This document shows positions 2,558 through 25,878 of a stretch of 64,000 nucleotides of DNA, one piece after another. The stretch spans positions 1-64,000 of the forward strand of contig JAOPYI010000115.1 of NCBI GenBank assembly GCA_025964675.1. The letters are read 5' to 3'. The notes beneath the pieces were generated by a model, which was given only the letters and a program-made list of their open reading frames with translations, searched no databases and had not been told where the DNA came from. The DNA is from Sphaerisporangium sp. GTDB lineage: Bacteria; Actinomycetota; Actinomycetes; Streptosporangiales; Streptosporangiaceae. Position 1 is the stretch's first letter; each line of letters begins with the position of its first letter. Made by a program: the position numbers and the translations under genes.

Positions 2558-2705
2558 CCTTCAAACCCGTGGCCGGCAGTTCAGCACCATTTGAGATGCT
2601 TCATACCCTTTCGTCACGGTTTTGCACTTTCATGCGTCTGGACGACTTTCGCTATATGGTGCAGGGCAACAGCCAAGGTCAACCATCACTTCTCAAGAGG
2701 CACCA

Positions 2706-3902: not shown

Positions 3903-3948
3903 TCCCGGTTCCCGCCGCGAGGGCTCACGGGGCCGCCAGGGCGCATGA

Positions 3949-3999
3949 TCGGAGGCCGCCGTGCGGAGCCGCCGTCCCCCCGACTCGGAGGCCGCCGTG
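3949..3999 (+). repeat. Duplicated ribosome binding site and GTG start
   Basis: The 15-mer TCGGAGGCCGCCGTG occurs at 3949-3963 and again at 3985-3999. Each copy contains a Shine-Dalgarno sequence followed by GTG, and both GTG codons are in frame with the histidine kinase, 36 nt apart. The kinase could therefore start at 3961 or 3997. Confidence 0.8.

Positions 4000-5566: not shown

Positions 5567-5574
<8 letters not shown>
3997..5574 (+). CDS. Membrane sensor histidine kinase (HAMP, phytochrome-like kinase core)
   Basis: A 525-residue sensor kinase. TM1 spans about residues 24-45 and is followed by a helical extracellular domain of about 150 residues resembling CHASE3-type four-helix sensors. 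TM2 is near residues 198-222, then HAMP ([19 protein letters not shown]) and a coiled coil. The H box [10 protein letters not shown] has its histidine near residue 308; the N box is [11 protein letters not shown] and the glycine boxes are DNGIGVD and [11 protein letters not shown]. The SHDLQEPL form is typical of kinases paired with Rcp1-like regulators, and exactly such a regulator follows with an 8-nt overlap. A duplicated start region allows an alternative start at 3961, 12 residues longer. The signal sensed is unknown. Confidence 0.9.
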
Positions 5575-11017: not shown

Positions 11018-12862
11018 CTATAGTTTCCGGAAGAGCCGCCGGCGCCTGAGCTTCAGCTGCAAGGCCAGCGCCGCCAGCAACAGGACCACCGCGGCGATGG
11101 CGGCGGGCAGGCCGCGCACCACGTGGGAGTCATCGTGGTCGGCGTCCGCCACGAGCTCGCGCTTCTCCGGACGGATCTCCTGCGGCAGTGGCGCGCCCAT
11201 CGCGGGATCCGGGGCGCCGGGGACCGCCGCCGGAGCACGACCTGGAACCTCCTGGCCCGGAACGCCCGCGCCCGGAAGCGGAGCCTGTCCCGGGACCTGA
11301 GCCTGCCCGGGGGCCGGCGCCTGGGCCGGAGCCGGTGACACGCCCGGGACCGGTGCGGCGCCCGCGGGCGGTACGGCGCCCGGAACCTGCGCGGGTGCGG
11401 GGGCGATCGGCGGTACCGGGGCCGCCATGGGCATCTGGATGCCGGCGCTCAACGGTGCCACCGGCGGAGCCTGAACCGGTGCTGGGACCGGAGCCCGGAC
11501 GGGCATCGGCGCCGGCTGCGGGATCGTGACGGGCGCCGGCACGGAGCCTTTCGCGGGCTCCGCGGGGATGCCGGGCGCCGGGTGCGGGATCACGGGGGAG
11601 GCCTTCGGCTTGCCCGATGGGTGCCGCGACGCCCGCACGGAGTCCCCTGGCGGCGCCTGGGGACCGGAGCCGAGCTTCTGCGCCCCGACCTGGTGCATGC
11701 CATTCGTCTGAGGCGGCACAGCGGTCAGCTCGATGACTCTCTCGGCAGGCTGCTCGGCACCCGCGCCGGCCAGGGCCAGGGCGTCCTTTGGCGTTACGAC
11801 CTCATCCGGTCTAGCGGCGCCTTTACCGCTAATGTCGACCCCGCTAAATTCGCCCGCTTTATCCTTTTTGTCTTGAATGTCGCTAAGGTTCTCGCTGTCG
11901 GTCTTGGGTACGGAACCGGCCGGGTCAGGCGACACGGGGGTCACCAGAGTCACGGAATCGGCCGGCCCAGGCGACACGGGGGTCACCGGAGTGGCGGGCG
12001 ACTCGTCACCGACCTCACCTTTCGTCCCCTGGGCGTTCGTTCCCTCGCCCTTAGAGGCGTCACCCCTCCCCGCCTCACCCTTGGCGGCCCCCGCAATCAG
12101 GATCTGGCCATCCGCCGGCTCGCCGTTCGCATGCTCGTCCTTCGGGTGCTCGGGCCCGGACGAACCGGGTGACACGAGCACCTCGGGCGTGGTGGCTTCT
12201 CCGGCGGAGTCCGGCGCCGAGCCTGGGCCCGGGTCGCCGCCCTTCAGCGGAGCCAGGGTGAGCGCCTGCTCCTCGATCTCCGGATCGGCCGTGCCCTGTG
12301 ACGGCCTCTTACCAGACGTGGGAAGCGAGGTCAGCTCGCCGGACGGCTTCCTGACGCGGAGCTTGACGTCCGCCATGCGCCTGACCCACTGCACGCCGCC
12401 GGGGTCGCGCATTTGGGCGACGGCGGTCACGCCGACCTCGTCCGCCTCCCGGGGAACCTCCATCGTCACATCGACGGTCCTGGTGCGCGCGACCTCGCCC
12501 AAGTCGCAGATCTGGGGCCGCGACGCCGGCTTGGACGGAGTGCCGGCCGTGTCCTCGCACGCGACAGAAGCGAGCGCGTTCCTCGGAGTGGTGGCCACGG
12601 CCAGCCGTGCCCGCTCCGCCGGGCCGTCCAGCGTGACATGGAAGTGCAGGACGTCGCCCGCGCGGATCGGCGCGCCCTGCCGGGCCTGCTCGCCGGTGGT
12701 CAATAGGCGCACGCTGAGCTGGGCGCTGTCCCCCGTGTCCGGTGGCTCCACAGAACCACGCTCCGCCGCGAGCGCGGTGAGAGTGGATCCCCCGCCACCC
12801 AGAACCAGCGCTCCAACGCCGACTACGGACACCACCCTGGCACGTCGCCATCCACCGGCCAC
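11018..12862 (-). CDS. Long surface stalk protein with C-terminal membrane anchor, unknown function
   Basis: A 614-residue predicted surface protein. An N-terminal signal sequence (VVSVVGVGALVLGGGG...LTALAA) leads to a globular domain of about 120 residues with two cysteines (ASVACEDTAG, PQICDLGE) and a beta-rich look. A long acidic, Pro/Gly-rich segment follows, then an almost pure Pro-Ala-Val stalk (PAPVQAPPVAP...). It ends in one TM helix and a basic stop-transfer tail KLRRRRLFRKL. There is no LPXTG motif. The start is uncertain: GTG 12862 has GGGGA upstream and gives a clean signal peptide; ATG 12943 would overlap mutT. It resembles wall-spanning stalk proteins generally; the binding partner is unknown. 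Confidence 0.7.
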   Translation of the reverse strand: MAGGWRRARVVSVVGVGALVLGGGGSTLTALAAERGSVEPPDTGDSAQLSVRLLTTGEQARQGAPIRAGDVLHFHVTLDGPAERARLAVATTPRNALASVACEDTAGTPSKPASRPQICDLGEVARTRTVDVTMEVPREADEVGVTAVAQMRDPGGVQWVRRMADVKLRVRKPSGELTSLPTSGKRPSQGTADPEIEEQALTLAPLKGGDPGPGSAPDSAGEATTPEVLVSPGSSGPEHPKDEHANGEPADGQILIAGAAKGEAGRGDASKGEGTNAQGTKGEVGDESPATPVTPVSPGPADSVTLVTPVSPDPAGSVPKTDSENLSDIQDKKDKAGEFSGVDISGKGAARPDEVVTPKDALALAGAGAEQPAERVIELTAVPPQTNGMHQVGAQKLGSGPQAPPGDSVRASRHPSGKPKASPVIPHPAPGIPAEPAKGSVPAPVTIPQPAPMPVRAPVPAPVQAPPVAPLSAGIQMPMAAPVPPIAPAPAQVPGAVPPAGAAPVPGVSPAPAQAPAPGQAQVPGQAPLPGAGVPGQEVPGRAPAAVPGAPDPAMGAPLPQEIRPEKRELVADADHDDSHVVRGLPAAIAAVVLLLAALALQLKLRRRRLFRKL

Positions 12863-12939
12863 CGCAGATCCCCGTCCCCCGATACGATGCGCGACAAACG
12901 CGTCACGCTGTGTAACTGTTATCTCACATCCTGCCGGGT

Positions 12940-13329
12940 TCAACCCTCAGGGATCAGATCTTGTACGGCCCGGACGATCGGGAGGTCGGCGGGGAGCCAC
13001 GCGATGTCGAAGAGCTCGCCAGGAGCGAGCCAGCGCAACGCCAAGTGCTCGTGGGGGTGCGGAACGCCCGAGGTCAGCCGGGCCAGCCAGACGCGCAACA
13101 CGTACCCCGGGCTGAGCGGCCAGTCGCCGCCGACCCTGTCCCCGACGGCGATCCCGACGCCGAGTTCCTCCTGGCACTCCCGGATCAACGCTTGCTGGTC
13201 GGTCTCACCGGGGTCGACCTTGCCGCCGGGAAACTCCCAGCCGCCCGCCATCTCCGGCGGCGCCGCGCGCTGGGCCGCCAGCAGCCTGCCCCCCTCGACG
13301 ATGGCCGCCGCCACAACAATCTTCTCCAT
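12940..13329 (-). CDS. mutT: MutT-like Nudix hydrolase (8-oxo-dGTP diphosphatase family)
   Basis: A 129-residue Nudix protein of typical MutT length. The Nudix box is complete: G-KVDPG-E-TDQQALI-RECQEELG. MutT enzymes hydrolyse oxidised nucleoside triphosphates, which prevents mutation. The start MEKIVVAAAIVEGGRLL is standard. It lies 81 bp after the SLT-NlpC/P60 gene on the same strand and may be read with the secretion-like cluster, although function does not link them. Substrate range in this family varies, so the oxidised-dGTP role is inferred from length and sequence style. Confidence 0.9.
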   Translation of the reverse strand: MEKIVVAAAIVEGGRLLAAQRAAPPEMAGGWEFPGGKVDPGETDQQALIRECQEELGVGIAVGDRVGGDWPLSPGYVLRVWLARLTSGVPHPHEHLALRWLAPGELFDIAWLPADLPIVRAVQDLIPEG

Positions 13330-13410: not shown

Positions 13411-14499
13411 CTACGTAAGGCCGAGACGTTTGAGCTGTCCGACCACATTCGGGTTCTCCAGCGGCCGCGTGTAACCGACGATGTTGGGCCGGTCGCGGTA
13501 CGTCGTGACCTTGATCGGCCCGCAGAGGGTGCATCGGGCCTCGACCATCTTGCCGGGCGAGACCACCATGCCGACGTGCCCCGGGCTGTTGGAGGAGGTG
13601 CCGGGCCCCGCGTTGAAGAAGACCAGGTCTCCCGGCTGCTCGGAGCCCTTGCTCACCTTGGCGCCGAACGGCCACTGGCCGAAGGTGGTGCGCGGGATGG
13701 ACAGCCCGGCCGCCCGGTAGGCCATGTAGATGATGCCCGAGCAGTCGAAGCCGTTCGGTCCTGTGCCGCCCCAGACGTACGGCTTGCCACGCTGGGCCAG
13801 GGCGTACTCCAGGATCTTGCGGACGAGGTCGGTCGGCGCCGCTTCCACGATCGGGGTGTCGCACGCCGGGTCGGCCTCCGGGGGCACCTCGAGCGTCCCG
13901 TCCGAGGCGTACCGCCTGGCGATCACGAGCACCTGCTCGACGTACCACATCGCGTGGTTGTAGACGAAGAGCGCGCGCTTGAGGTCGCCCGGGGCGCCGT
14001 TGCGCTTGAGCATCTTCGCCGCGCCGAGGATCGCGTCGGCCGGGTTGTAGACGTCCGCGTAGCCGTCGCCGTCGCCGTCCGAGGCGTACCCGCTGAACTT
14101 CGACGGGATCTTGATCTTGGACTTGCCGCCCCAGGTGCTGATCAGGAACTGCATGGGACCGGCGGCGCCGGCGTAGTTCGTACCGCTCTTCACCCCGGTG
14201 AGGTTGGAGCGGCCATGGTCGGTCTCGCGCTTGCCCACGGCGGCCAGCACGGTCCACTGGACGCCGGTCTTCTTTCCCCACTTCTTGTAGAGCTCCAGGT
14301 AGTTCGCCGGGATGTCCGACTGGGCGGTGGTGGAGACGTTCGTCACCTTGGTCACCCCACCGCCCGAGCAGTCGCCGCCCCCGCTGCCGCCGCCGAGGAA
14401 CGCGGGGAACGTGCTCATGAGCATGGGCGCCATGATCAGGGTGACCAGTACGACCCCGGCCAGCCCGATGAGCAGCGCTACGCGCACCCGGGAGGTCAC
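13411..14499 (-). CDS. Bifunctional peptidoglycan hydrolase: SLT-like plus NlpC/P60 domains (T4SS TcpG/VirB1 role)
   Basis: A 362-residue membrane-tethered cell wall hydrolase. After an N-terminal TM (VALLIGLAGVVLVTLIMAP) comes a lysozyme-like domain with the catalytic glutamate in GKRETDHGRSN and AGPMQFLIS. It is followed by an NlpC/P60 peptidase with cysteine in FDCSGIIYMAYRAAG and histidine in HVGMVV. This SLT + NlpC/P60 pairing is typical of the hydrolase that opens the wall for Gram-positive conjugation machines (Tn916 Orf14, TcpG). GTG 14499 overlaps the upstream stop (GTGA), coupling it to the cluster; an upstream ATG at 14568 lies within the preceding gene. Confidence 0.9.
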   Translation of the reverse strand: MTSRVRVALLIGLAGVVLVTLIMAPMLMSTFPAFLGGGSGGGDCSGGGVTKVTNVSTTAQSDIPANYLELYKKWGKKTGVQWTVLAAVGKRETDHGRSNLTGVKSGTNYAGAAGPMQFLISTWGGKSKIKIPSKFSGYASDGDGDGYADVYNPADAILGAAKMLKRNGAPGDLKRALFVYNHAMWYVEQVLVIARRYASDGTLEVPPEADPACDTPIVEAAPTDLVRKILEYALAQRGKPYVWGGTGPNGFDCSGIIYMAYRAAGLSIPRTTFGQWPFGAKVSKGSEQPGDLVFFNAGPGTSSNSPGHVGMVVSPGKMVEARCTLCGPIKVTTYRDRPNIVGYTRPLENPNVVGQLKRLGLT

Positions 14500-15152
14500 G
14501 GGGTGGTCCCGTTTCCGGTGTCCCCGTCCTGGCCCGCGTCGGCGGGCTGCATGTCGAAGACGCGCCACTCGCTGCCCACCTGGGTCAGCGTGATCGCGTA
14601 GTCCGCACTACGCTCCTGCGGCCCGCTCTTGGCCGTGATGCGCTGGACGGCGGTGACCACGAACACGATCGACCCGGCCGAGATGTCGCGAATGGACTTC
14701 GCCCGCGCCGATCCGAGAGAGACCGTCTGGTCGGCCCGGTTCTGCTCCACCGTGGCCGGCGTGGTGACGTCCCGCGCGAGGATCACGCCGAGCTCCGGCG
14801 TGGTGAAGCCCTTCAGGCGCTCGGCGTATGAGGCGGGGTCCTCGTCGAACCGGAACGTCGCGTAGGAGACCGTGAACCGCTGGGCCATGTCCGCGGCCTG
14901 GGCGATCTGGTCCTTGGACAGCGGCAGGTAGTTGTAGATGTCGAACGAGCCGGGGCTGATCGCCGGAGCCGGCGAGGCGCCCGGGGACGACGGCGCGGCG
15001 GGGGTCGTGGAGACCACCGCCGCCCTGCCGGGAGGACCGGCGTGCTCGGAGCCGCCGGGGGCGGGCCGCATGGACAGATAGATGCCGACGGTCGCGAGGG
15101 CGACGACCACACCGGCGAAGACAAGTCCTCGCCGGTCGTTCACCTGCATCAT
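14496..15152 (-). CDS. Small membrane-anchored protein of the T4SS-like cluster
   Basis: A 218-residue protein of unknown function. One N-terminal TM (LVFAGVVVALATVGIYLSM) is followed by a Pro/Ser linker and a soluble domain of about 130 residues, placing the bulk outside the cytoplasm. The domain's size, the pattern AQRFTVSYATFRFDE and the ending SEWRVFDMQP suggest an NTF2-like/VirB8-like fold; I infer this and cannot prove it. The ATG is 2 nt after the VirB6-like stop with AAGGAC upstream, and its own stop overlaps the NlpC/P60 start. It would be the second VirB8-like subunit of the cluster beside the TcpC-like protein. Confidence 0.75.
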   Translation of the reverse strand: MMQVNDRRGLVFAGVVVALATVGIYLSMRPAPGGSEHAGPPGRAAVVSTTPAAPSSPGASPAPAISPGSFDIYNYLPLSKDQIAQAADMAQRFTVSYATFRFDEDPASYAERLKGFTTPELGVILARDVTTPATVEQNRADQTVSLGSARAKSIRDISAGSIVFVVTAVQRITAKSGPQERSADYAITLTQVGSEWRVFDMQPADAGQDGDTGNGTTP

Positions 15153-15154
15153 CG

Positions 15155-17713
15155 TCAGTCCTTGTCCCGGTCGGCCGGTCGCAGCCAGAAGGGCGAGGAC
15201 TCGCCCTCACCGCCGCCGGAGTCGGACCGCGGCGGCAGCCAGAGCGGCGGCGCCTCGCCGGACCCCGACCGCCCGCCGCCGGACAGCCAGCCGGACGACC
15301 CGCCGTTCGACGACCTGCCGGACCCGTTGGAGGACCTGCCAGAGCCGTTGGACCTGCCGGACGAGCCGCCGAACAGACCACCCGGGGAACCACCCGAAGA
15401 CCGTCCGGCCGCCGGCCGGCCGGAGGAGCCACCGGACGACCCCCCCGAGGAACGGCCGGAGGAGCCGCCGGAGGAGCCGCCGAACAGGCCGCCAGAGGAG
15501 CCACCCGACGACCCGCCGGAGGAACGGCCCGACGACCCGCCGCCGCCCGACATGCCGCGAGGCCCACCCGCCGTGGAGCGCGGAGCCCTCGGCGCCGATC
15601 CCTCGGAACGGCGGGAGGACCCACCCGAGGTCCCGCCGGAGGAACCTCCAGAGGAGCCGCCGGACGAACCGCCAGAGGACCGCGAGGCCCAGCCGCCACC
15701 TGACCTGCCGCCGAACCAGCTACCCGCCGAACCGCTGCCCGCCGAGCCTGACCCGGTGCTGGTACGCGTGGCCGGGCGCGGGCTCGGCACGTTGGCGCCG
15801 CCGGGGCGCCCCGAGCCGCCGTTGCGTCCGGACAGGTTGAGCGGCGGGGCGGCCCCGGGACGTGGTACGGCAGTGCCGCGCCCGGTCGCCTTGCGGCGCG
15901 CGCCCGCCTGCCCGTCGGCGTCCAGCGGCGCCGGCTGAGCGCCCACGGGAACGCGGGTGCCGCTCTGCTGCGTGGCGCCCGGGGTGACCTCCTCGCCCCT
16001 GACGCGGCCCTGGGCGACCGCGGCGCCGGCCGCGGCCGCGCCGCCACCCGCCATGGCGGCCGCGTTGATGATCGGCTCGGCCTTGCGCAGGCCCCAGCGG
16101 CCCATCCTCGCGGCGGCCACCGGCGGCAGCGCGTTCGCGGCACGCGACAGGGTCGGCGCGGAGGCCGCTTCGCCCAGCATCCTCGTGGTGAGCGTGTGGC
16201 CGTCCATGGACGAGAAGAGGTGCTGGAAGGGGCGCCGGTAGAAGAACACCGCGATCGTGAGCAGCGCGATGAACATGATCTGCATGCCCCAGGGGAGGTT
16301 CGTGGAGATGATCAGCGCGTAGCCGTACACCAGTACGCCCAGCACGAGCGCGAGCACGGCCTGCCGGAGCAGCGTGCCGATCAGCATCTCGACCCAGCGC
16401 ATGGCGATGATGCGCCCGGAGCCGGGATGGACGCCGATCAGCAGGAACACCGGCCCCATGATCAGCAGCAGCAGGAAGCCGATCTTGAGCGCGATCAGCG
16501 ACACCGCCACCAGGAAGATCAGCACGCCCGCGACCATGGCGGCCATCAACGCGCCGATCGCGATGCCGAGCCTGCTCGTCCAGTCCTTGCCCTGGAAGAG
16601 GAAGAACACCGGGGTGCTCTCGAGCGGCTTGGCGACCTCCTGCTCGAACCTCGCCTGGTGGGCGCTGGAGCTGGGCTTCTGCCCCGAGGACTGCTCCAGG
16701 ACGTCGGTCGCCTGGATGTCGAGCATCGTGGCGCCGAACGACCGCACGATGGGCGCGCCGGCGTCGGCGGTGCCGAACTCGCCCATCAGCCATGGCTTGC
16801 AGACGAGCGTGGACCACAGCGCGTCGGCGTTCTGGGCGACGCCAGGGGTGCCGCTCTGGCCGTAACCGCCAGGGCCCACCTTGGCGTTGGTCTGCCCCTT
16901 GACCGGCAGGCAGGACGCCCCACCGGCCCCGGGGAGCCCGCTGAACGCGGAGTTGACGATCTCGCCGGTCTTGTCTGTCACGGTCTTGCCGAGGCCGGTG
17001 AAATCCCCCGGGCGGCTGAAGAACCACACGGCCACCGTGACCGCGAGGATCATCCAGATGACGCCCTCGGCCGTCGTGCTGGCGCGCTTGCGGATCAGCC
17101 CGTACCACGCGAGCCAGACCGCCCCGAGCAGGATGATCACCCGCAGGTACGGCCAGTACATGGCGTTGGCGAGGTTGGTGACGATGTCGTCCACCACGTT
17201 CTTGATGGACTGGAGCGGTCCTTCGGTCGCCGCCGCCTGGTAGGTCGTGATCGTCATCCGATCGATGGCCTTGGCCCAGGAGAACACCGTGTTGGCCCAC
17301 GCGTTGCCGAGAACCGCCGCCACGTCGCTGCAGCCGAGCCCGTAGGTGTGCCAGAACTGCCCGGCCATGCCGTACCGGTCGTAGTTGGTCAGGGGCTCCG
17401 CCACGCCCTTGGCGGTGGTCGTGGAGGCCGCGCCCGTGGTCGTGCCCGTCGACCCGGTGACGCCGAGGCCGCCCGTGCCGGGTGCGGGGTCCGGCGGGGG
17501 CGGCTTGACGAGCCCGTCGACGCCGCCGCCGACGATCTCGGGCGCGAGGTCAGGCGACAGGTCGCACAGCCCGGCCGCACTGGCCGTGGTGGGAGAGAAC
17601 GCGATCGGCACCACGACCACGCTGGCGAGGATCACCAGAACAAGAAGGACCTTACGCCGCAGCCTTCTCACCGCACCCCGTTCGGACGACCTCGAAACCT
17701 CACGGTGTCTCAT
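15155..17713 (-). CDS. VirB6/TrbL-like polytopic channel protein with Gly/Ser tail (TcpH/ConG role)
   Basis: An 852-residue membrane protein. A signal-like segment ends in TTASAAG, followed by a glycine-rich loop and then several hydrophobic helices between about residues 180 and 500 (for example LGIAIGALMAAMVAGVLIFLVAV and IGFLLLLIMGPVFLLIGV). The fold and place next to VirB4 match the VirB6/TcpH channel subunit of Gram-positive T4SS. The C-terminal 230 residues are a cytoplasmic or wall-side tail dominated by GGSSG repeats. The ATG overlaps the VirB4 stop (ATGA). Function as the inner-membrane channel is inferred from topology and neighbours. Confidence 0.82.
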   Translation of the reverse strand: MRHREVSRSSERGAVRRLRRKVLLVLVILASVVVVPIAFSPTTASAAGLCDLSPDLAPEIVGGGVDGLVKPPPPDPAPGTGGLGVTGSTGTTTGAASTTTAKGVAEPLTNYDRYGMAGQFWHTYGLGCSDVAAVLGNAWANTVFSWAKAIDRMTITTYQAAATEGPLQSIKNVVDDIVTNLANAMYWPYLRVIILLGAVWLAWYGLIRKRASTTAEGVIWMILAVTVAVWFFSRPGDFTGLGKTVTDKTGEIVNSAFSGLPGAGGASCLPVKGQTNAKVGPGGYGQSGTPGVAQNADALWSTLVCKPWLMGEFGTADAGAPIVRSFGATMLDIQATDVLEQSSGQKPSSSAHQARFEQEVAKPLESTPVFFLFQGKDWTSRLGIAIGALMAAMVAGVLIFLVAVSLIALKIGFLLLLIMGPVFLLIGVHPGSGRIIAMRWVEMLIGTLLRQAVLALVLGVLVYGYALIISTNLPWGMQIMFIALLTIAVFFYRRPFQHLFSSMDGHTLTTRMLGEAASAPTLSRAANALPPVAAARMGRWGLRKAEPIINAAAMAGGGAAAAGAAVAQGRVRGEEVTPGATQQSGTRVPVGAQPAPLDADGQAGARRKATGRGTAVPRPGAAPPLNLSGRNGGSGRPGGANVPSPRPATRTSTGSGSAGSGSAGSWFGGRSGGGWASRSSGGSSGGSSGGSSGGTSGGSSRRSEGSAPRAPRSTAGGPRGMSGGGGSSGRSSGGSSGGSSGGLFGGSSGGSSGRSSGGSSGGSSGRPAAGRSSGGSPGGLFGGSSGRSNGSGRSSNGSGRSSNGGSSGWLSGGGRSGSGEAPPLWLPPRSDSGGGEGESSPFWLRPADRDKD
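15190..15720 (-). repeat. Low-complexity GGSSG-coding repeat region
   Basis: Imperfect short repeats coding GGSSGGSSGG and SGRSSGG fill the 3' end of the VirB6-like gene. On the plus strand they read as CCGGAGGAGCC-like units. Such tracts expand and contract easily, so length may vary between strains. Confidence 0.8.
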
Positions 17714-20193
17714 GACCGAACCTCCTGCGCAGCCCCGGACCTACCGGCTCGCCCACGAGGATCATGCACGCTCTCGCCGGGTTTGTCGTGGGTCGGATTG
17801 GTGTCCAGCCAACGCAGCAGGTCCTCGGAGATGAGGTCCACCCCGATCCGGCCGGCCCGGCCGTCCAGATCGCGGAAGATGCATTCGCCGTTGCCGAGCG
17901 CCCGCAGCGCCGCCTTGTGCTCCTCGGAGGGCTCGACGCCGAGCAACGCCATGACGTGCTCGACCTCGACACGCTCGGTGGAGCGGAAGGCGAAGACCGA
18001 CGAGAGACAGTTCGTGACCTGCTCGTTCAGCAGGTCGCCGGCGTTCTGGGAGACGAGCACCAGCGCGGTGTTCCGCGACCGGCCCATGCGGGAGACCTCC
18101 GGCACGAGCTTGGCGCCTTCGGGGGTGGAGGTGATCGCCCACGCCTCGTCCAGGAAGATCGCCTTGGGTGCGCGGCGGTCCAGGCCGTTCATCAGCCGCC
18201 GGGCGAACTGCGACACCAGGTAGAGCAGCGCCACCGAGAGCCGCTGCTCGTAGGAGTAGTCGTCCCGCGTGGTGGTGACGTCGGGAAGGGTCAGGCCGCC
18301 GAGGGTGAACACCGTGGTCCAGCCCTCGGTGTCGATCTGATCACCGCCTGAGGGGTCGAAGCACAGCCGGGCCAGGTGCATCTCGGACATCGACCGCAGC
18401 ACCGCCCCGAGGTTCCTGGAGGCGGGGTCCTCGGCCTGCTCCAGGTGGTCGACGACCTTGCCAAGCGACGGGTCGGGCGCGTTGGACACCGTCGACACGG
18501 CCTGGATCATCGCCGACTCGCGCTCCTCCGACATGCGCGGAAGCAGCAACCGCAGGGTCTCGGTCGCCATGGTCTTCTTGGCGGCGATGTCGTCGCCGAA
18601 GGAGAACGGGTCGAGCAGGCCGGGGGACGCCGAGCCCAGCGGGATGATGCGCGCCTTGCGCCCGCGCCTCTGCAGGAGCTGGACCAGCGACTCCGCGTCG
18701 CCCTTGGGGTCGATGACCGCGACGGTGACCCCGCGCAGCGCCATCTGGTAGATCAGCAGCAGCGCGAGCGTCGTCTTGCCGCCGCCAGGCTCCCCGGTGA
18801 TGGCGATGGCGGTGGGACGGTTCCGCGTGGCGGCGACCATCGGGTCGAAGTGGACGATGGAACGGGCACGCCCGAGCGTCTCCCCGATGTACGGCCCTGC
18901 CCACCCCGCGCCGCTCTCGTCGATGCGGTCGCCGAGGTCGACGGTGGCCGTGGCCATGCCTCCCGCGATCGTGCGCAGCGGCTGCCGCTGGGCGTAGGCG
19001 TTGACACGCACCCGCTCGCCCGGCAGCGACTCGCAGAACAGCGAGAACTGGTCGCCCGTGGAGTTGACGATGTCGATGCCCATGTCGCGGTAGTGCTCAA
19101 CGACCGCCTCGACGCGCTGCACGCACATCTCCTCGGTGGGCGCCGCCACGATCAGCCGGTGCCAGCCGTACACGAAGGGCAGGCGCTCCTTCGTGATGCC
19201 GTGCTCCAGCATGCGGGCGGCGTCGATCTGCTCGGCCAGGGCGATCGGAGCCTCCGCGCCGGCCTCACGGATGTGGATGTCCATGTCACGGGCGTGCGCG
19301 AGCTTGCGCGCGACGTCCTTGCTCGCCTTGACGGGGGGAATCAAGCGCATCCGCGAGCTGACCTCCACCGGGAACGGTAGCTGGTCGATGAAGTGCAGCC
19401 ACGGCTCGCCGTCCGGGAACGGCATCAGGTCGGGGAACCTGGCGAACGACAGGTGAGCGACGTAGGAGTCGCCCATCGGCTGCTCGACGCGCAGGAGCGA
19501 CCGGCCGTTGTGGATCTGGCCTTCGACCAGCGACTCGACCTCGCCCTTGCCCCACCGCCTGGACGGGGTCGCCGACGACGGCGGGTCGCCGAGCGAGCCC
19601 GACGCGGCGTGCCGGAACAGCCAGGCGATCTCGCCGGACGAGGCGTGGCGGGCGTACAGGGCGCTGGAGCCGAGGGCACGGCCGAGGCGCTCCGCGAGGT
19701 CGGTCCACTTGGTGATCTCGGTGTCGGGGACGTGGTCGTCCTCCAGGCCGAGGGTCTTCTCGCCGCGCTGGTAGAACCCGAAGAGCTGGGCCAGCACGCC
19801 CGCGCCGAGCTGTGCGCCGCGTGGCCCGAGGCGTACCCCGATGTAGACCTCCTTGGACCAGAAGTCCTTCGCCCAGACGTGCCGGTACATGTCCTCCAAG
19901 TAGTCGCGCCACCCCTCCCCCTCGTCGGAGGTGGCGTTGAGCGCCATGGCCCAGTCGGCGGCGGGATAGGCCCGGTGTGCCACCCGGAGATGCACCTCGG
20001 CGTCGGGCATGCGGATCGTGGCCAGGGCGATGGTGATGTTGGTGGCGAGGGACTCCCGTTCCTCGGCGGTGACGAACTCGTAGCTCACCGTCGGAAGCCG
20101 GAAATACGCCCATGCCGACGAGTCGGTAAGAAGGATCCGATCGTCGAAATAGCGTACGGCCAGCCTGCTCCTCGACCGCGACGATCTTCCCAT
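17710..20193 (-). CDS. VirB4-family secretion ATPase (TcpF/ConE-like)
   Basis: An 827-residue ATPase that would power the secretion-like machine. The N-terminal part has the VirB4 ConE-type domain; the C-terminal motor has Walker A GEPGGGKTT near residues 465-473 and Walker B KAIFLDEAW near 675-683. Both catalytic motifs are intact, and the length is close to ICEBs1 ConE (about 830). The start is uncertain: ATG 20193 (MGRSSRSRSRLAVRYFDD) gives the usual length and begins after the end of the upstream gene; a start at 20415 would lie inside that gene. The stop overlaps the VirB6-like gene. A VirB4 with no coupling ATPase nearby is unusual. Confidence 0.9.
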   Translation of the reverse strand: MGRSSRSRSRLAVRYFDDRILLTDSSAWAYFRLPTVSYEFVTAEERESLATNITIALATIRMPDAEVHLRVAHRAYPAADWAMALNATSDEGEGWRDYLEDMYRHVWAKDFWSKEVYIGVRLGPRGAQLGAGVLAQLFGFYQRGEKTLGLEDDHVPDTEITKWTDLAERLGRALGSSALYARHASSGEIAWLFRHAASGSLGDPPSSATPSRRWGKGEVESLVEGQIHNGRSLLRVEQPMGDSYVAHLSFARFPDLMPFPDGEPWLHFIDQLPFPVEVSSRMRLIPPVKASKDVARKLAHARDMDIHIREAGAEAPIALAEQIDAARMLEHGITKERLPFVYGWHRLIVAAPTEEMCVQRVEAVVEHYRDMGIDIVNSTGDQFSLFCESLPGERVRVNAYAQRQPLRTIAGGMATATVDLGDRIDESGAGWAGPYIGETLGRARSIVHFDPMVAATRNRPTAIAITGEPGGGKTTLALLLIYQMALRGVTVAVIDPKGDAESLVQLLQRRGRKARIIPLGSASPGLLDPFSFGDDIAAKKTMATETLRLLLPRMSEERESAMIQAVSTVSNAPDPSLGKVVDHLEQAEDPASRNLGAVLRSMSEMHLARLCFDPSGGDQIDTEGWTTVFTLGGLTLPDVTTTRDDYSYEQRLSVALLYLVSQFARRLMNGLDRRAPKAIFLDEAWAITSTPEGAKLVPEVSRMGRSRNTALVLVSQNAGDLLNEQVTNCLSSVFAFRSTERVEVEHVMALLGVEPSEEHKAALRALGNGECIFRDLDGRAGRIGVDLISEDLLRWLDTNPTHDKPGESVHDPRGRAGRSGAAQEVRS

Positions 20194-20230
20194 CAGCCGG
20201 CTCGATCCCCGCGCCGGGCTCGCTTCCTGG

Positions 20231-22633
20231 TCACTGAGCCACTTCCTCCTCGCTCGGGCGGCTCGCCGCCGCCAGCCCGCTTGCCACAACTCCCGCCAGG
20301 GCGACGTACGCCCTGCGTCCTCCGGCCCGGAGATGGGTCGGCTCGGCCGGCCCGGGGTGCCCGGGGGCGAGCTCGTCCTCCCACGGGACGCGGACGATCG
20401 CGCGGCAACGGCCACGGGCCACCGCCTCCGCCTGCTCGACGCCTGCCATGCTGCGCCGGCTGACGCCGTTGATCACCATGATGGCCCGGCGGCGCAGCTC
20501 GGTGGACCCGTGCCCGTCGAGCCAGTCGAAGGTCATCGCCACCGCGTCGGGAGCGTCCTCGCTCGCGGGGGCCACCAGGATGAGCTGGTCGGCGTACGGC
20601 AGCATGCGCGCCGCCACGGCCGCGGCGGGGTCCAGCAGGATCAACCGGTAGTGCCGGTCGAGCACCCGCATGGCCTGCGCCAGCCTCTGGTCGGAGAAGA
20701 GCCCTTGGTCGGCGAGCCGCCGGGCCGCCGCCGTGTCGGTGTCGGAGCCGACGACCTCGAGACCGGACTCGCAGCGGGTGGTGTAGCTGCGCATGCTGAG
20801 GTAGCCGTTGACGCCGTCGAGCCCGGCGAGCAGCGAGGTGAGCGTCTCCGGCGAGTCGGCGGCGATACGGCCGGTCATCGTGTGGTCGCCGGTGTTCGCG
20901 TCGACCGCGAGGACGCGGTCCTCGCGGTAGTTGGCCAGGGTGTGGCCGAGCATCAGGGTGGTCGTGGTCTGGCCCGCGCCGCCGGTGCAGCCCAGCACGA
21001 CGACGCGGCGGCTGCCGGTGAGCACCGTGCGCGCCCTCGCCTCGTCGGTCTCGATGCCGTCGTGACGGCTCGGACCGCCGCCGCCGACCACCACCTGGGC
21101 GAGACGCCGCCAGCCTCCGGACTGGTCGCGGCCCACGACCGACTCGACGCGCCGCACGCGCGGCTCGTCGCCCGTACGGGGACCCGGCATGGGAACGGAC
21201 GGCATGGCCGGATCCGCGGTGGCAGCCGGCCCTGAGGGCACCGCGCGGATCGACAGCGGCGGCGCCCCCTGCTCGCGCGCGGCCGGCCGCAGAGGGCTCC
21301 TCGGCGCCGTGGGCTTGGGCACGACCGGGCCGGGGCCTGTGGGCGCCGGCGCCTCCGGCACGCGCGCCCTGGGGGCCGGCCACACCGTGCGGGCCTCCGG
21401 CAACCGGGTGTGGGCGGAACGCGGGGGCTGGCCCTTGCGGTGCTTGTCGCGAAGGTCCGTCTCGGCATCGGGCTCGGCGGCCGCCTGCGCCGCGAGCCGA
21501 GGCGCCTCCTGGTGAGCCACCTCCCGCTCCTGGACCTCCTGCTGGAGGGGCTCCTGGTGGTGCGTCTGCTGATGGTTCGCCTGCTCGGACGGCCTGCTGC
21601 CGGCGGCTCCCCGGCCCTCCGCGGACGCGGCGAGCCTGCGCAGGCGGCGCAGCGCTTCTGTACCGATGGGCGCGGGCGGCGGCGCCGTGGCCGCGTCCGG
21701 CTCCTTGGCGACCACCGGCGACACCTCGGGCTGCGAGACCTCGGGTTTCACGTCGGGCTCGGGCTGCGCCGAAGCGACCTTGGACTCAGGCGGAGGGAGC
21801 TTGGAGACGGCCGGCTCGGCGACCCGCTCGGGCACCGCCCTGGAATCGTGGGTGGACGGCGAGACGGGGTCAGGGGACGACGAGAACGCCTCCCTGGACG
21901 GCGAGACCGCGCCGGTGGTCGGCAAGAACGCGTCGGTGGATGGTGAGAAGGCGGAAGGAATGCCGCCGGCGGGCTGGGTGATCACGCTGCCCCAGGTGAC
22001 GCGCGGCCTCTCGGTGACGCGGAGTGGTGTCTCCGCCGCCGGGAGCGTGGTCACGGCCGCGGCGGCGGCCGCCACAGCGGGGCGGACCTCGCCGGGAACG
22101 ACCGCACCCCTGCGCGAGGCCGGTTTGACCGAGGGCAGCTGACGTGGGCTCCAGGCCGGAAGGGACCTTCGCCGGGGCGCCGTGTGCTTGGGCTTCGCCC
22201 TGGTGCCGCGGCGCGCCTTGGAGGCGGACTTCGCGGTTGCGGCGGAGGTGAGGAGCGCGGCCTGCGGAGCCGTCCGCCACACCTTGACGGAGAACGTGAT
22301 CTCGTCGGGCTCGTCGGCCGGCGTCAGGCGGCAAAAGGTCTTCGGCTCGCCGAGATAGCGGAGCTGGGACTGAAGCAACTCGTTGAGCCGCTTGCTCTCG
22401 ATCACGGGGCGGGTCGACAGCCACGTCACGATGCCCGGCGGCACGAGGTAAAGCACGTGCCACGGCGCCTCGAACGGGATCCTGACAAGCCAGAGAAGGA
22501 TCGACCATGGGACGACCACGCCCACGAACACACCGATCCAGATGATCGGAAGCGGCATCGGCAGCCGAAGGTCGTACAGCTTGTAGAGCCGCTTCTCAAT
22601 CCGCCAGATATTGGTATAGGTAGGCAGGTCCAC
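20231..22633 (-). CDS. TcpE-like membrane domain fused to a degenerate ParA/MinD-type ATPase domain
   Basis: An 800-residue fusion. Residues 1-140 resemble TcpE conjugation membrane proteins: DLPTYTNIWRIEKRLYKL, two adjacent hydrophobic helices (PIIWIGVFVGVVVPWSILLW and HVLYLVPPGIVTWL) and a soluble patch. About 370 residues of Pro/Glu/Ala-rich linker follow. From about residue 545 to the end is a MinD/ParA-type domain, but the P-loop reads GCTGGAGQTTTT: the Walker lysine is glutamine and the signature lysine before GG is threonine. VDANTGD and LILLDPAAA remain. It begins with GTG and GGAGG upstream. ATP binding may be lost; a scaffold role is one possibility (inference). Confidence 0.82.
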   Translation of the reverse strand: MDLPTYTNIWRIEKRLYKLYDLRLPMPLPIIWIGVFVGVVVPWSILLWLVRIPFEAPWHVLYLVPPGIVTWLSTRPVIESKRLNELLQSQLRYLGEPKTFCRLTPADEPDEITFSVKVWRTAPQAALLTSAATAKSASKARRGTRAKPKHTAPRRRSLPAWSPRQLPSVKPASRRGAVVPGEVRPAVAAAAAAVTTLPAAETPLRVTERPRVTWGSVITQPAGGIPSAFSPSTDAFLPTTGAVSPSREAFSSSPDPVSPSTHDSRAVPERVAEPAVSKLPPPESKVASAQPEPDVKPEVSQPEVSPVVAKEPDAATAPPPAPIGTEALRRLRRLAASAEGRGAAGSRPSEQANHQQTHHQEPLQQEVQEREVAHQEAPRLAAQAAAEPDAETDLRDKHRKGQPPRSAHTRLPEARTVWPAPRARVPEAPAPTGPGPVVPKPTAPRSPLRPAAREQGAPPLSIRAVPSGPAATADPAMPSVPMPGPRTGDEPRVRRVESVVGRDQSGGWRRLAQVVVGGGGPSRHDGIETDEARARTVLTGSRRVVVLGCTGGAGQTTTTLMLGHTLANYREDRVLAVDANTGDHTMTGRIAADSPETLTSLLAGLDGVNGYLSMRSYTTRCESGLEVVGSDTDTAAARRLADQGLFSDQRLAQAMRVLDRHYRLILLDPAAAVAARMLPYADQLILVAPASEDAPDAVAMTFDWLDGHGSTELRRRAIMVINGVSRRSMAGVEQAEAVARGRCRAIVRVPWEDELAPGHPGPAEPTHLRAGGRRAYVALAGVVASGLAAASRPSEEEVAQ

Positions 22634-22671
22634 CCGATCCTCCTCTCCCTCTCACGGCCGTCCGGGTGTGC

Positions 22672-22959
22672 TCACTTGATGCCGAGCGCCCCCGCGATGG
22701 CCCTGGCCGTCACCTCGATGACGTTGGGCACGTAGAAGATCACACCGATCGCGACGGCCAGAATGATGAATTGCACGAATCTGGTGATCTCCCGCGTGAA
22801 GAGGAAGAAAATCGCGACCACGGAGACCACGACGAGGAACAGCGGGGCGAAGAACTTTCGCAGGAAGTCTGCGAGGCCCGCGGTGTTCACCCCGCCGGTC
22901 GGCGGTGCCGACGGCGTCACAAGCTCCAACGCGTTGTCCACGATGATTTTCAGAATCAA
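22672..22959 (-). CDS. Small two-helix membrane protein of the T4SS-like cluster (TcpD/VirB2-like position)
   Basis: A 95-residue hydrophobic protein. Two helices, FFAPLFLVVVSVVAIFFLF and VQFIILAVAIGVIFYV, flank a short charged turn (TREITRF), and the C-terminus is VTARAIAGALGIK. Size and topology fit the small membrane protein between TcpC and TcpE in Gram-positive conjugation loci, and also VirB2-like pilins. The start codon is TTG at 22959; AGGAGG lies 8 nt upstream and decides it, because no ATG or GTG is suitable. A TTG start hints at limited expression. Confidence 0.75.
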   Translation of the reverse strand: MILKIIVDNALELVTPSAPPTGGVNTAGLADFLRKFFAPLFLVVVSVVAIFFLFTREITRFVQFIILAVAIGVIFYVPNVIEVTARAIAGALGIK

Positions 22960-23052
22960 CTCTCGTCCTCCTGCTCATGGTCGCGGCCGGTCCGTAGGCC
23001 GGGTCGTCGCGCTCCCTTTGCCGCTCCCTCGCTCCCCATCGCCGCCCCGGCC

Positions 23053-24078
23053 TCACCCCGCGGACCGGGTCGCACCGCGAATGTCCTTGATGTACCAGTT
23101 GTCACCTTGCTTCTCCACGGTGAGCCTGTAGGCCTGCTCGAGCCCCCCTGCCTGGGCGGCAGGATCGGCCGAGGTCGCGGCCGGAGCCGGGGTCGCGCCC
23201 GTGGGGACGCCCCACACGACCACGGCGGTGATCTCGCGGCTGGTGCCACCGGGAGGAGCGCTGACGCTCTTCAGCTCGGCCAGCGTGACCTTTCCATCGA
23301 AACCATCGAGTGTCACGCCTTGTGCGACATACCGCTGCAACTGCGTGGCGTCGCCGGCGGCGTACGCCTTGAAGAAGCCTTCGAGCTGCGGGCGCAGCTC
23401 GCCCTCGGCGATTTCGTCATGCTCCGGCTGAGGGAGCTGGGGCAGGCCCGCGGGCCCTCCGGCCGGCAGCAAAGCCGGCTGGCCCGAAACGACGAACTTG
23501 CCATTGGAGTAATAAACCGGGACGGAAAGCTTCCAGCGCTGCGCACCAGATTGGGCGAAAACCGCGACAACAGCATTTTGTGCGTCGATGACCTCTATGC
23601 CCGAGAGCTGGAAAGCACCCGCGGACATGCGGCCGAAACCATTCCAGCCGAACTGGCGCTCGGCGCCCTCGGGAAGAAACGGCTTGAGCCGCTCGGCCCT
23701 GTCGTCGGGCTTCGAACCGTCGAAATTCAAATAGGCCGCCGCGAACTGGCCGGCGAACGCCGTGGCGCCGGCCTCCGGGAACCCGGAGGCCGTCGGAGTC
23801 GCCGCTGAGCCCGTGGGCGCGCCGCCCTGGGAGAGGCGCTCGATAGGAGCGCGGACGCCGTTGACCACGATCACGATGATCAAGGCCCACAGGACGGCTC
23901 TGCCGGTCCACACGAGCCAGCGCCCGCCCCCACCGGACCAGCCACCGCGCCGTGGCGCGTCGCGTCCACGAACCGGCGCGTAGTCGGGGTCCTGATCGTA
24001 GGGCGACGGAGGGTACGCCGAATGCTCGGGTTCGCCAGCGGCCCTCAGACCCTGCTGGACGTTTGACCTGCGAGCCAT
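23053..24078 (-). CDS. TcpC-like (VirB8-like) conjugation assembly protein
   Basis: A 341-residue bitopic protein, probably the first gene of the secretion-like cluster. A basic, disordered N-terminus of about 60 residues leads to one TM (WTGRAVLWALIIVIVVNGV), then two exported NTF2-like domains: one around AFAGQFAAAYLNFDGSKPD and one around QLEGFFKAYAAGDATQLQRY, ending in DNWYIKDIRGA. The doubled NTF2-like layout is the hallmark of TcpC/ConB, which scaffold the channel across the membrane. ATG 24078 follows GGAGG by 4 nt; the start at 24114 is less likely. Confidence 0.85.
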   Translation of the reverse strand: MARRSNVQQGLRAAGEPEHSAYPPSPYDQDPDYAPVRGRDAPRRGGWSGGGGRWLVWTGRAVLWALIIVIVVNGVRAPIERLSQGGAPTGSAATPTASGFPEAGATAFAGQFAAAYLNFDGSKPDDRAERLKPFLPEGAERQFGWNGFGRMSAGAFQLSGIEVIDAQNAVVAVFAQSGAQRWKLSVPVYYSNGKFVVSGQPALLPAGGPAGLPQLPQPEHDEIAEGELRPQLEGFFKAYAAGDATQLQRYVAQGVTLDGFDGKVTLAELKSVSAPPGGTSREITAVVVWGVPTGATPAPAATSADPAAQAGGLEQAYRLTVEKQGDNWYIKDIRGATRSAG

Positions 24079-24718
24079 CACGCCTCCGGTCGCGCCGATC
24101 CCCCCGGCTGGCACGGTGTCGTCTTACTATCGATCCTGTTATCCATGGTGAAGTATCACTTTAGCGGCCTCACCAATTGTTCCAGGAAAGCCACGCCCAT
24201 GCGGCAGGCATCGCGGTAGCAGACCAAGTCGGTCTTCCTCCGGTTTCTGGAATGCGTTCACGCAGGACACAGGCCCCTTGCCCGCCCGCGAGCCATGGCT
24301 GACCTCGGCGGCAAAGTTCGCATTAGAGACAAAGCTCGCACCAGATTGAAAACCGCTATAAACGCGGCATGCCGTGGAGGCATAACTCCTGCTCACGCAG
24401 GCGACCGGACCGCGCGCGCCTATCCGTACAGACCTCTGTGGGACGACGAAGGCGTCCGGCTCGGCCGGGAGGCCGCGAACCCTTCGCACGCACCGGCCTC
24501 CCTTCCGCCGCACTGCTCGTGCGAGTCGGCACACGGCGGCCGCGTACACGGCCGCGGCCCCGGCAGGGCACACTACCGACCCAAACACTGGAGGGTACGC
24601 GTGGCGGGAAGCCCGGCTCGATTACCTGACGGCCAGGCATTGCTATCCGCGGGTGGCGAGGTCACGCACCGTACGGCGGGTTTCACGATGGGGATCCACC
24701 GTGGCCGTGGCGTGGCGG
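24079..24718. other. 640-bp region without a convincing gene
   Basis: It separates the start of the T4SS-like cluster from the end of ychF. It should hold the cluster promoter: GATAGT near 24128 (minus strand) is a possible -10. GTGAAGTATCAC at about 24148 is a small palindrome. TATAAA near 24355 could be a plus-strand -10. A 42-codon reading frame at 24601-24729 (GTG with GGAGG upstream) is too short and unfamiliar to call. Confidence 0.5.
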
Positions 24719-25795
24719 CTACACGTTGAAGCGGAACTCCACCACGTCGCCGTCGCGCATGACGTAGTCCTTGCCCTCGATGCGGGCCTTGCCCGCCGAC
24801 CTCGCCGCCGTCATCGACCCCGCCCCGACCAGGTCGTCGAAGGAGATGACCTCGGCCTTGATGAAGCCGCGCTGGAAGTCGGTGTGGATGACCCCCGCGG
24901 CCTCCGGGGCCGTGGCGCCCCTGCGGATGGTCCAGGCCCTGCTCTCCTTGGGCCCGGCCGTCAGGTAGGTCTGGAGGCCGAGGGTCCCGAAGCCCACGCG
25001 GGCGAGCTGCGTGAGGCCCGACTCCTCCTGGCCGACCGACTGCAGCAGCTCCAGCGCCTCTTCGTCGGCCAGCTCTACCAGCTCCGACTCGATCTTGGCG
25101 TCGAGGAACACGGCCTCGGCCGGGGCGACCAGCTCGGAGAGCCGGGCGCGCAGGCCCTCGTCGATGAGCTCGTCGGCGTCGAGGTTGAAGGCGTACAGGA
25201 AGGGCTTGGCCGTGAGCAGGTGGAGCTCGCGCAGGTCGGCGAGGTCGAGGCCCGAGGCGTAGAGCGTCGTGCCGGTGTCGAGGACCTTGGAGGCCGCCTC
25301 CGCCGCCTCGAGCACGACCTTGCGGTCCTTGTTGAACTTCGACTCCTTGGCGAGCCTCGGCAGCGCCTTCTCGATCGTCTGGAGGTCGGCGAGTATCAGC
25401 TCCGTGTTGATCGTCTCGATGTCGCGGCGAGGCGAGATCTCACCGTCGACGTGAGTGACGTCGGGGTCGGTGAAGACACGGATCACCTGGCAGATGGCAT
25501 CGGTCTCACGGATGTTGGCCAGGAACTGGTTGCCCCGCCCCTGCCCCTCGGACGCGCCCTTGACCAGGCCGGCGATGTCGACGAACTCGACCTTCGCCGG
25601 AAGGATCTTGGCGGAGCCGAAGATCTCGGCCAGCTTCCCCAGCCGGGAGTCGGGCACGCCGACGATCCCCACGTTGGGCTCGATGGTGGCGAACGGGTAG
25701 TTCGCCGCCAGGGCGTTGCCGCTCTTGGTCAGCGCGTTGAAAAGCGTGGACTTACCGACGTTGGGCAGGCCGACGATGCCGATGCTCAGGCTCAC
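24719..25795 (-). CDS. ychF: Redox-regulated ATPase/GTPase YchF (OLA1 family)
   Basis: A 358-residue P-loop NTPase of the Obg-related YchF family; members bind ribosomes and hydrolyse ATP or GTP. Walker A is GLPNVGKST at residues about 8-16, followed by the switch segment NYPFATIEPNVG, then DIAGLVKGASEGQGRGNQF. The C-terminal TGS domain ends in MRDGDVVEFRFNV. The start GTG 25795 (VSLSIGIVGLPNVGK) matches the family; an ATG at 25837 would add 14 unlikely residues. It stands alone, transcribed away from rmuC. Confidence 0.96.
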   Translation of the reverse strand: MSLSIGIVGLPNVGKSTLFNALTKSGNALAANYPFATIEPNVGIVGVPDSRLGKLAEIFGSAKILPAKVEFVDIAGLVKGASEGQGRGNQFLANIRETDAICQVIRVFTDPDVTHVDGEISPRRDIETINTELILADLQTIEKALPRLAKESKFNKDRKVVLEAAEAASKVLDTGTTLYASGLDLADLRELHLLTAKPFLYAFNLDADELIDEGLRARLSELVAPAEAVFLDAKIESELVELADEEALELLQSVGQEESGLTQLARVGFGTLGLQTYLTAGPKESRAWTIRRGATAPEAAGVIHTDFQRGFIKAEVISFDDLVGAGSMTAARSAGKARIEGKDYVMRDGDVVEFRFNV

Positions 25796-25878
25796 GTTCG
25801 CCGAGTTTACGGTGCCCCGGCCGTACGCAGGACACACGCCCGGGCCGCGCGACTGGAATCATGCGGGGGGTGGACGTC

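Follow-up and report, generated by a model that had tools for sequence, protein, structure and literature searches.

What is a Gram-positive conjugation channel doing at a fixed chromosomal place, seemingly without the proteins that would load it with DNA? The question is raised by a 64,000-nucleotide (nt) stretch of Sphaerisporangium sp. (contig JAOPYI010000115.1, positions 1 to 64,000; hereafter the window), in which seven collinear genes of a type IV secretion system (T4SS) channel of the Tcp/MPF_FA type lie on the minus strand at positions 13411-24078, between ychF and mutT. The source genome is a draft of 7.77 Mb in 313 contigs, 99.5% complete, and the VirB4 ATPase of the window is 94-96% identical to the VirB4 proteins of six Sphaerisporangium genomes. 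We find that the cluster is not an ordinary mobile element and that the channel is, with high confidence, a resident one that is not conjugative in itself. The original prediction, which had been made from the window alone, saw here a resident machine for another job; this view is well supported, because VirB4 is present in all sampled genomes of the family, the cluster is collinear wherever a long locus was available, its divergence tracks that of ychF, and the searches for DNA-loading partners were negative for the families covered below.

Distribution, synteny and inheritance

In the family of Sphaerisporangium, Nonomuraea, Microbispora and Streptosporangium, VirB4 was found in 117 of 117 sampled genomes. 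An order-wide sample, in which the other families are coded (f2, f3) and not named, gave matches in 118 of 121 genomes: the 117 of the own family, the single genome of f2 and none of the three of f3. At the level of the class, 33 of 296 genomes matched VirB4 at E 1e-60, with 31 of these in the own family and two outside it at 31% identity; 243 of the genomes that gave no match are not listed individually. The two out-of-family matches are nearly full-length and belong to one genus (g42; G312:C1:4906869-4909340 and G602:C3:745008-747485), and they perhaps represent another fixed system. A phylum-wide sample at E 1e-30 yielded 16 matches in 296 genomes including the source genome, and among the others only three exceeded 33% identity (49, 47, and 40%). 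In the family to which the two closest outsiders belong, 2 of 21 genomes match VirB4 at E 1e-60. Genera among the best 80 of 267 related stretches include Sphaerisporangium, Nonomuraea, Microbispora, Streptosporangium and Planotetraspora. An in-frame VirB4 stop was counted for G025, G039, G071, and G096, all of the family; in the three that were checked (all but G071), the frame is open to residue 821 and the stop corresponds to the normal end of the protein.

For the analysis of gene order we used loci of at least 18 kb (long loci; n = 93, of which 89 are distinct after removal of four duplicates) and excluded shorter ones; the counts of 93, 97, 71 and 102 loci in this text still hold some duplicates. 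The genes tcpC, tcpE, virB4 and virB6 and a small gene are present in all 93 long loci (89 distinct), and the second virB8-like gene and the hydrolase gene in 88 of the 89 distinct ones, as is the full set of seven. In the remaining locus (L035 of genome G023) VirB6 lies nearly 10 kb from the VirB4 start, where the fetched stretch ends, and this distance suggests an insertion inside the cluster. An absence of VirB6 from 7 of the 93 loci was rejected as a search artefact, a protein-level search recovering it in 93 of 93. Within the cluster all 93 long loci are collinear, and among the 89 distinct loci ychF is a neighbor in 69 and mutT in 75. The internal order is fixed and the flanks are mostly so, and the arrangement is not restricted to a single strain, which would have pointed to an ordinary integrative conjugative element.

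The ratio of non-synonymous to synonymous change (dN/dS) of VirB4 is 0.074-0.108 in four within-genus comparisons, indicative of strong purifying selection, and is below that of YchF in all three comparisons in which YchF was measured. The fastest-evolving proteins of the cluster are the TcpE-ParA protein and the second VirB8-like protein (dN/dS 0.31-0.46). The distances of VirB4 and YchF over 71 loci are correlated with a Mantel r of 0.82, where the largest value in 999 permutations was 0.35. The fixed order, the correlated distances and the low dN/dS together argue for vertical inheritance and not for an element in transit.

Search for DNA-loading partners

The absence of a relaxase and of a coupling protein, which had been proposed for the window, extends to the whole draft genome for the families that were searched. 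No VirD4-type coupling protein was detected with TraG-D_C (PF12696) or T4SS-DNA_transf (PF02534), and no relaxase with TrwC (MOB_F) or the MOB_P Relaxase model in the 313 contigs, other MOB families not having been searched. The only AAA_10 protein over the cut-off in the genome is the VirB4 of the channel. Three of the four negative searches used models able to detect such partners, as the TrwC, T4SS-DNA_transf and TraG-D_C models match the Nocardiopsis exhalans plasmid described below (157, 58, and 50 bits).

FtsK_SpoIIIE matches were found in six proteins, none of them on the contig of the window. Four are taken as FtsK and EccC-like proteins from their size and match pattern, one of them, on contig C56, having been read. 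The other two, of 477 and 485 residues, adjoin DUF2637 genes (contigs C32 and C57; L201 and L202), a neighborhood that we take to be that of actinomycete integrated elements, and these two proteins probably come from such elements.

The distribution of TrwC relaxases across the family is patchy (18 of 61 genomes), which sets them apart from the channel. In the ten of these 18 genomes for which the place of VirB4 is known, TrwC and VirB4 are on different contigs.

Components of the channel

All seven of the linked genes that had been proposed are real and in the proposed order, between ychF and the mutT-like gene (Table 1). The identities of the TcpC-like and TcpE-like proteins, VirB4 and the SLT-NlpC/P60 hydrolase hold, with Pfam models over their cut-offs. 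The starts of VirB4 and of the hydrolase (NlpC) are probably further in than those of the longest open reading frames (ORFs), and for VirB4 the ATG at 20193 is the most likely start, rather than 20415. With these revised starts (VirB4 ATG 20193, NlpC GTG 14499), three of the six junctions overlap or touch (a 4 nt overlap of VirB4 and VirB6, a 2 nt gap between VirB6 and the second VirB8-like gene, and a 4 nt overlap of the latter with the hydrolase), not four as first counted. The other three junctions are gaps of 37, 38, and 93 nt.

The Walker motifs of VirB4 are intact, as predicted: Walker A reads GEPGGGKT and Walker B IFLDEAW in the window, and both are kept in 109 of 109 distinct loci. The TcpF model NF052333 also matches VirB4 with a strong E-value, yet below the model's own cut-off. 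For the small membrane protein the gene stands but its frame has to be corrected, from the overlapping ORF at 22652-23056 to the frame listed in Table 1. The proposed VirB6-like protein is polytopic, and its profile matches both remain under the cut-off (Pfam TrbL, marginally, 25.8 vs 25.9 bits; NCBIfam CD3337/EF1877, E 3.7e-23, 82 vs 120 bits).

The prediction of another small exported protein was borne out and can be extended. No Pfam family matched this protein, but its AlphaFold model has a VirB8 fold, with the VirB8 domain of PrgL of pCF10 (E 3.9e-5), IcmL-like proteins, TraM, DotI and CagV as the best Foldseek matches, and according to this model it is a second VirB8-like subunit. L112 was excluded from the alignment of the second VirB8, as its fetched frame ran through a stop. 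In the hydrolase, the NlpC cysteine motif (FDCSG or YDCSG) is seen in 95 of 102 loci.

Table 1. Coordinates of the channel genes, their flanking genes and the upstream features in the window
Feature	Position	Strand	Evidence
ychF, upstream flank	24719..25837	-	TIGR00092 4e-127
Dyad AGTGA-N4-TCAC	24148..24160	-	[AG]GTGA-N3..5-TCAC at about -83 relative to the start of tcpC (some related genera)
Conserved non-coding block (leader/promoter) immediately before tcpC	24079..24225	-	80% mean column identity, 14 sequences
tcpC, VirB8-like scaffold, one transmembrane segment	23053..24078	-	PF12642 3.4e-16, 60.2 bits (cut-off 27); hydropathy
Small protein of 95 residues with two transmembrane segments, TcpD position, second VirB3 candidate	22672..22959	-	89/89 distinct long loci; hydropathy
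TcpE (VirB3-like, residues 1-118), Pro-rich linker and MinD/ParA-fold domain	20231..22633	-	PF12648 4e-19, 69.4 bits (cut-off 29.9)
VirB4/TcpF ATPase	17710..20193	-	AAA_10 8e-67, 226 bits, over cut-off; TcpF NF052333 2.4e-72
VirB6-like polytopic channel protein, long Ser/Gly-rich tail	15155..17713	-	five hydrophobic segments; TrbL and CD3337/EF1877 matches
Second VirB8/NTF2-fold exported protein (predicted)	14496..15152	-	AlphaFold predicted local distance difference test (pLDDT) 84; Foldseek
Exported SLT and NlpC/P60 wall hydrolase, VirB1-like	13411..14499	-	NLPC_P60 1.4e-19, 70.4 bits; SLT_2 5.7e-7; both over cut-off
mutT-like Nudix gene, downstream flank	12940..13329	-	NUDIX 2.4e-17

The ParA-fold domain of TcpE

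The gene described as a TcpE-like fusion is indeed one, and the partner of TcpE is a MinD/ParA-fold domain without the Walker lysine. This C-terminal domain covers residues 526 to 800, approximately, in an alignment of 31 sequences; its AlphaFold model has a pLDDT of 90, and Foldseek matches it to FlhG, FleN, Soj and MinD (best E 7.8e-10). In 90 of the 93 long loci (four duplicates among the 93) TcpE and the domain are encoded by a single reading frame. The P-loop mostly reads GCTGGAGQ[TS], and all 109 of the 109 distinct loci have glutamine where the Walker lysine would stand. Judging from this motif, the domain has probably lost the usual ATP-dependent switching.

Related plasmids of Nocardiopsis

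The closely related VirB4 proteins of two Nocardiopsis plasmids (NZ_CP099838 and NZ_CP080600) are 74% and 70% identical to that of the window. Like the window, these plasmids carry genes for TcpC, TcpE, VirB4, VirB6, a second VirB8-like protein, an SLT protein and a MinD/ParA protein. Unlike the window, they have an annotated MobF relaxase and a VirD4-type protein (L213 15136-25389; L215 18314-28868), their TcpE and ParA are encoded by separate genes, the ParA keeps the motif KGGVGKT, and gene order and strands differ. ParA of the N. exhalans plasmid is 31% identical to the chromosomal ParA-fold domain over 278 columns. From this comparison, the chromosomal form amounts to the plasmid form minus the relaxase and minus VirD4, its ParA being joined to TcpE and devoid of the lysine. 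PLSDB classifies both plasmids as non-mobilizable, despite the annotated MobF and VirD4-type protein.

The VirB4 trees give no direction between plasmid and chromosome. A plasmid nested in the chromosomal clade was seen in a first tree, with support of 87 beside one chromosomal row, and was not retained, as the second tree was undecisive (approximately unbiased test, p 0.56).

Leader region and neighboring genes

Directly upstream of tcpC, a non-coding block of about 150 nt is conserved across genera (Table 1). The dyad [AG]GTGA-N3..5-TCAC occurs in 37 of 97 upstream regions (with the duplicates L186 and L187 excluded), where shuffling, which ignores relatedness, gives an expectation of 0.6. 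By genus, Nonomuraea accounts for 22 of these 37 regions, and the dyad is found in none of six each of Microbispora and Streptosporangium. Nine more diverged loci share a different upstream motif, ACCATAG..GGGGTAGAC.

Three candidate explanations for this region found no support. A riboswitch found no Rfam match above the gathering score, and none of 27 predicted pairs showed double-sided change. Candidate frames for a small peptide were seen by eye in some species and are broken in others. A BldD site at the dyad was dismissed, as the published box TNAC(N)5GTNA (PMC4151990, available in part) has the opposite arrangement and is not enriched.

Beyond mutT, the minus strand at 11018-12943 encodes a large Pro/Ala-rich protein, weakly conserved, with a C-terminal hydrophobic segment. 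Further away, at 2622-5574 on the plus strand, a response regulator with a SpoIIE phosphatase adjoins a CHASE3/HAMP histidine kinase.

Proposed function and alternatives

We propose that a Tcp-type (MPF_FA) channel became fixed in the chromosome of the ancestor of the family and has since been passed on vertically, in the role of a housekeeping or developmental machine of the envelope. VirB4, TcpE, the protein in the TcpD position, VirB6 and the two VirB8-like proteins would form a membrane complex driven by VirB4, and the SLT-NlpC/P60 hydrolase would open the wall and so connect this complex to the outside. The ParA-fold domain on TcpE may act as a fixed docking surface at the cytoplasmic face, in place of the coupling protein VirD4. 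The most likely site of action would be the hyphal envelope or the septum during development, as for the analogous Cmd complex of Streptomyces (see below). Taken as a whole, a family-fixed resident channel with a developmental envelope job is a plausible reading by this analogy, to which we attach slightly more doubt than belief. A bolder version is rather doubtful: that a Gram-positive T4SS, fixed throughout this actinomycete family, has left conjugation altogether, that an ATP-inactive ParA-fold domain tethered to the VirB3-like subunit has taken the place of its coupling protein, and that its job is now that of a developmental translocon, at hyphal septa or in spore compartments. Such a translocon may move protein or chromosomal DNA, or may serve to open the wall locally.

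Several observations weigh against a resident channel with an envelope role. Close relatives of the channel sit with a relaxase and VirD4 on the two Nocardiopsis plasmids, and for this reason DNA transfer is probably a task that this type of channel can perform or once performed. The relaxase negative covers two MOB families and a draft in many contigs, and the two FtsK-type proteins beside DUF2637 could be unlinked DNA pumps. ychF was missing from 20 loci; for six of them less than 1.5 kb had been fetched on that side, but the other 14 lack the gene within 3.4-6.0 kb, so the flanks are not universal; 13 of the 14 loci without mutT had 2.5-4.5 kb fetched on that side. VirB4 is frame-broken in 2 of the 117 family genomes (G055:C1:1391339-1393785 and G110:C158:28183-30601), where the two frames may reflect a sequencing or assembly error or decay, which are indistinguishable here. 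The SLT motif GKRET[DN]HG was seen in 81 of 102 hydrolases and not found in 21. The developmental role is argued by analogy only, because Cmd is not orthologous, and the BldD box occurs upstream of tcpC about as often as expected (4 of 97 vs 2.5).

The main rival is protein export without VirD4, in which Sec or Tat would take substrates across the membrane and the channel with its hydrolase would then carry them through the thick wall, in two steps as for Ptl and Brucella VirB. We consider it unlikely, though less so than the other alternatives. The missing match to a VirD4-type coupling protein fits this proposal, as several Gram-negative T4SSs without VirD4 secrete proteins, and secretion of a protease is reported for one Gram-positive T4SS, that of the Streptococcus suis 89K island, which does have VirD4 (PMC12857230; this review and the reports cited below were available in part). 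The conserved pair of VirB8-like subunits and the bifunctional wall hydrolase also agree with it. However, the same review describes DNA translocation as the only function of nearly all known Gram-positive T4SSs, and none of the seven cluster genes, to which the search for one was confined, resembles a substrate gene.

DNA transfer in trans would have the resident channel used by FtsK/TraB-type pumps of integrated elements, or by the relaxase and coupling protein of incoming plasmids. The two FtsK_SpoIIIE proteins on C32 and C57 could supply such pumps, the Nocardiopsis plasmids combine a close channel with MobF and VirD4, and Streptomyces SLP2 is reported to be conjugative (PMC2782261) while the PLSDB gene table, which is incomplete, lists no relaxase for it. 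Against this stand the patchiness of TrwC next to the universal VirB4 and the separate contigs of the two, and the Nocardiopsis plasmids bring their own channel. As fixation for the benefit of other elements is also hard to explain, we regard transfer in trans as improbable.

Even less probable is a DNA-uptake machine like ComB of Helicobacter, a T4SS without VirD4 (PMC12857230), for which a wall-opening hydrolase would be at hand but no known competence gene was found among the seven cluster genes, the only place searched. Finally, an ordinary integrative conjugative element or its remnant, suggested by a component set that equals a conjugation module (PF12642, PF12648 and AAA_10 above cut-off), is largely refuted and retains hardly any credibility in view of the family-wide presence, conserved order, vertical signal and strong purifying selection, and of the draft genome without MOB_F/MOB_P relaxase or VirD4-type matches.

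Comparison with known systems

The cluster shares TcpC, TcpE, TcpF/VirB4, VirB6 and a VirB1-type hydrolase with the Tcp/MPF_FA channels of pCW3 (tcp), Tn916 and ICEBs1, and has in common with the class that tcpE is directly upstream of virB4 and that a second small VirB3 candidate precedes tcpE (PMC12857230). It differs from these channels in its conserved chromosomal place, its second VirB8-like protein and the fusion of TcpE to a ParA-fold domain, and in that no VirD4-type coupling protein and no MOB_F/MOB_P relaxase was found in the draft genome.

A chromosomal VirB4-like ATPase cluster is also known from several Streptomyces, where cmdABCDEF (SCO4126-4131) is related to plasmid transfer genes (PMC2782261). 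Its deletion is reported to impair sporulation, septation and chromosome segregation, with aberrant branching and 6-8% anucleate spores vs 0.1%, and not to alter transfer of an SLP2-derived plasmid significantly (PMC2782261). Common aerial-hypha and antibiotic phenotypes have been described for cmdBCDEF and the lytic transglycosylase gene tgdA (PMC6585502). Orthology with Cmd, which we had expected, was rejected: VirB4 and the CmdB-type protein share 22% identity over 385 residues, the latter being little more than half as long, no CmdB-type match was found in the source genome at E 1e-10, and 20 of 61 family genomes match at only 24-30%. The CmdB-type query was the 475-residue protein of L085, a locus whose genus is inferred as Streptomyces; its identification as CmdB rests on its size, its VirB4-like domain, a Walker lysine near position 90, like the protein in PMC2782261, and similar matches (query 403-742) in many of 21 sampled genomes of the same genus. 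Frankia is reported to keep one conserved VirB4-like gene (PMC2266912).

The monoderm-type T4SS of Patescibacteria is likewise chromosomal, mostly without a relaxase and proposed to be co-opted (PMC12102498), but belongs to a different lineage and is described with VirD4-like proteins and VirB2-like pilins (PMC12857230). Ptl, Brucella VirB, ComB and Bartonella Trw are, like the channel of the window, without VirD4 (PMC12857230). Unlike it, they are diderm systems, and Ptl and ComB are described with subunits beyond the VirB1, 3, 4, 6, and 8 types, such as VirB9 and VirB10 homologues.

Co-opted T4SSs as such are thus already known, having been proposed for Patescibacteria (PMC12102498) and, in effect, in the work on Cmd. 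In the literature searched, which mostly excludes subscription papers and was available in part, no publication on this cluster, or joining Nonomuraea, 'type IV secretion' and VirB4, was found among the matches listed. The cluster described here adds a further, probably co-opted T4SS, of Tcp type, in which no VirD4 was found and which carries a distinctive fused pseudo-ParA. It offers a test case that spans a whole family of culturable filamentous actinomycetes, and its sister plasmids allow one channel to be compared directly in two settings, with a relaxase, a coupling protein and a Walker-intact ParA and without them.

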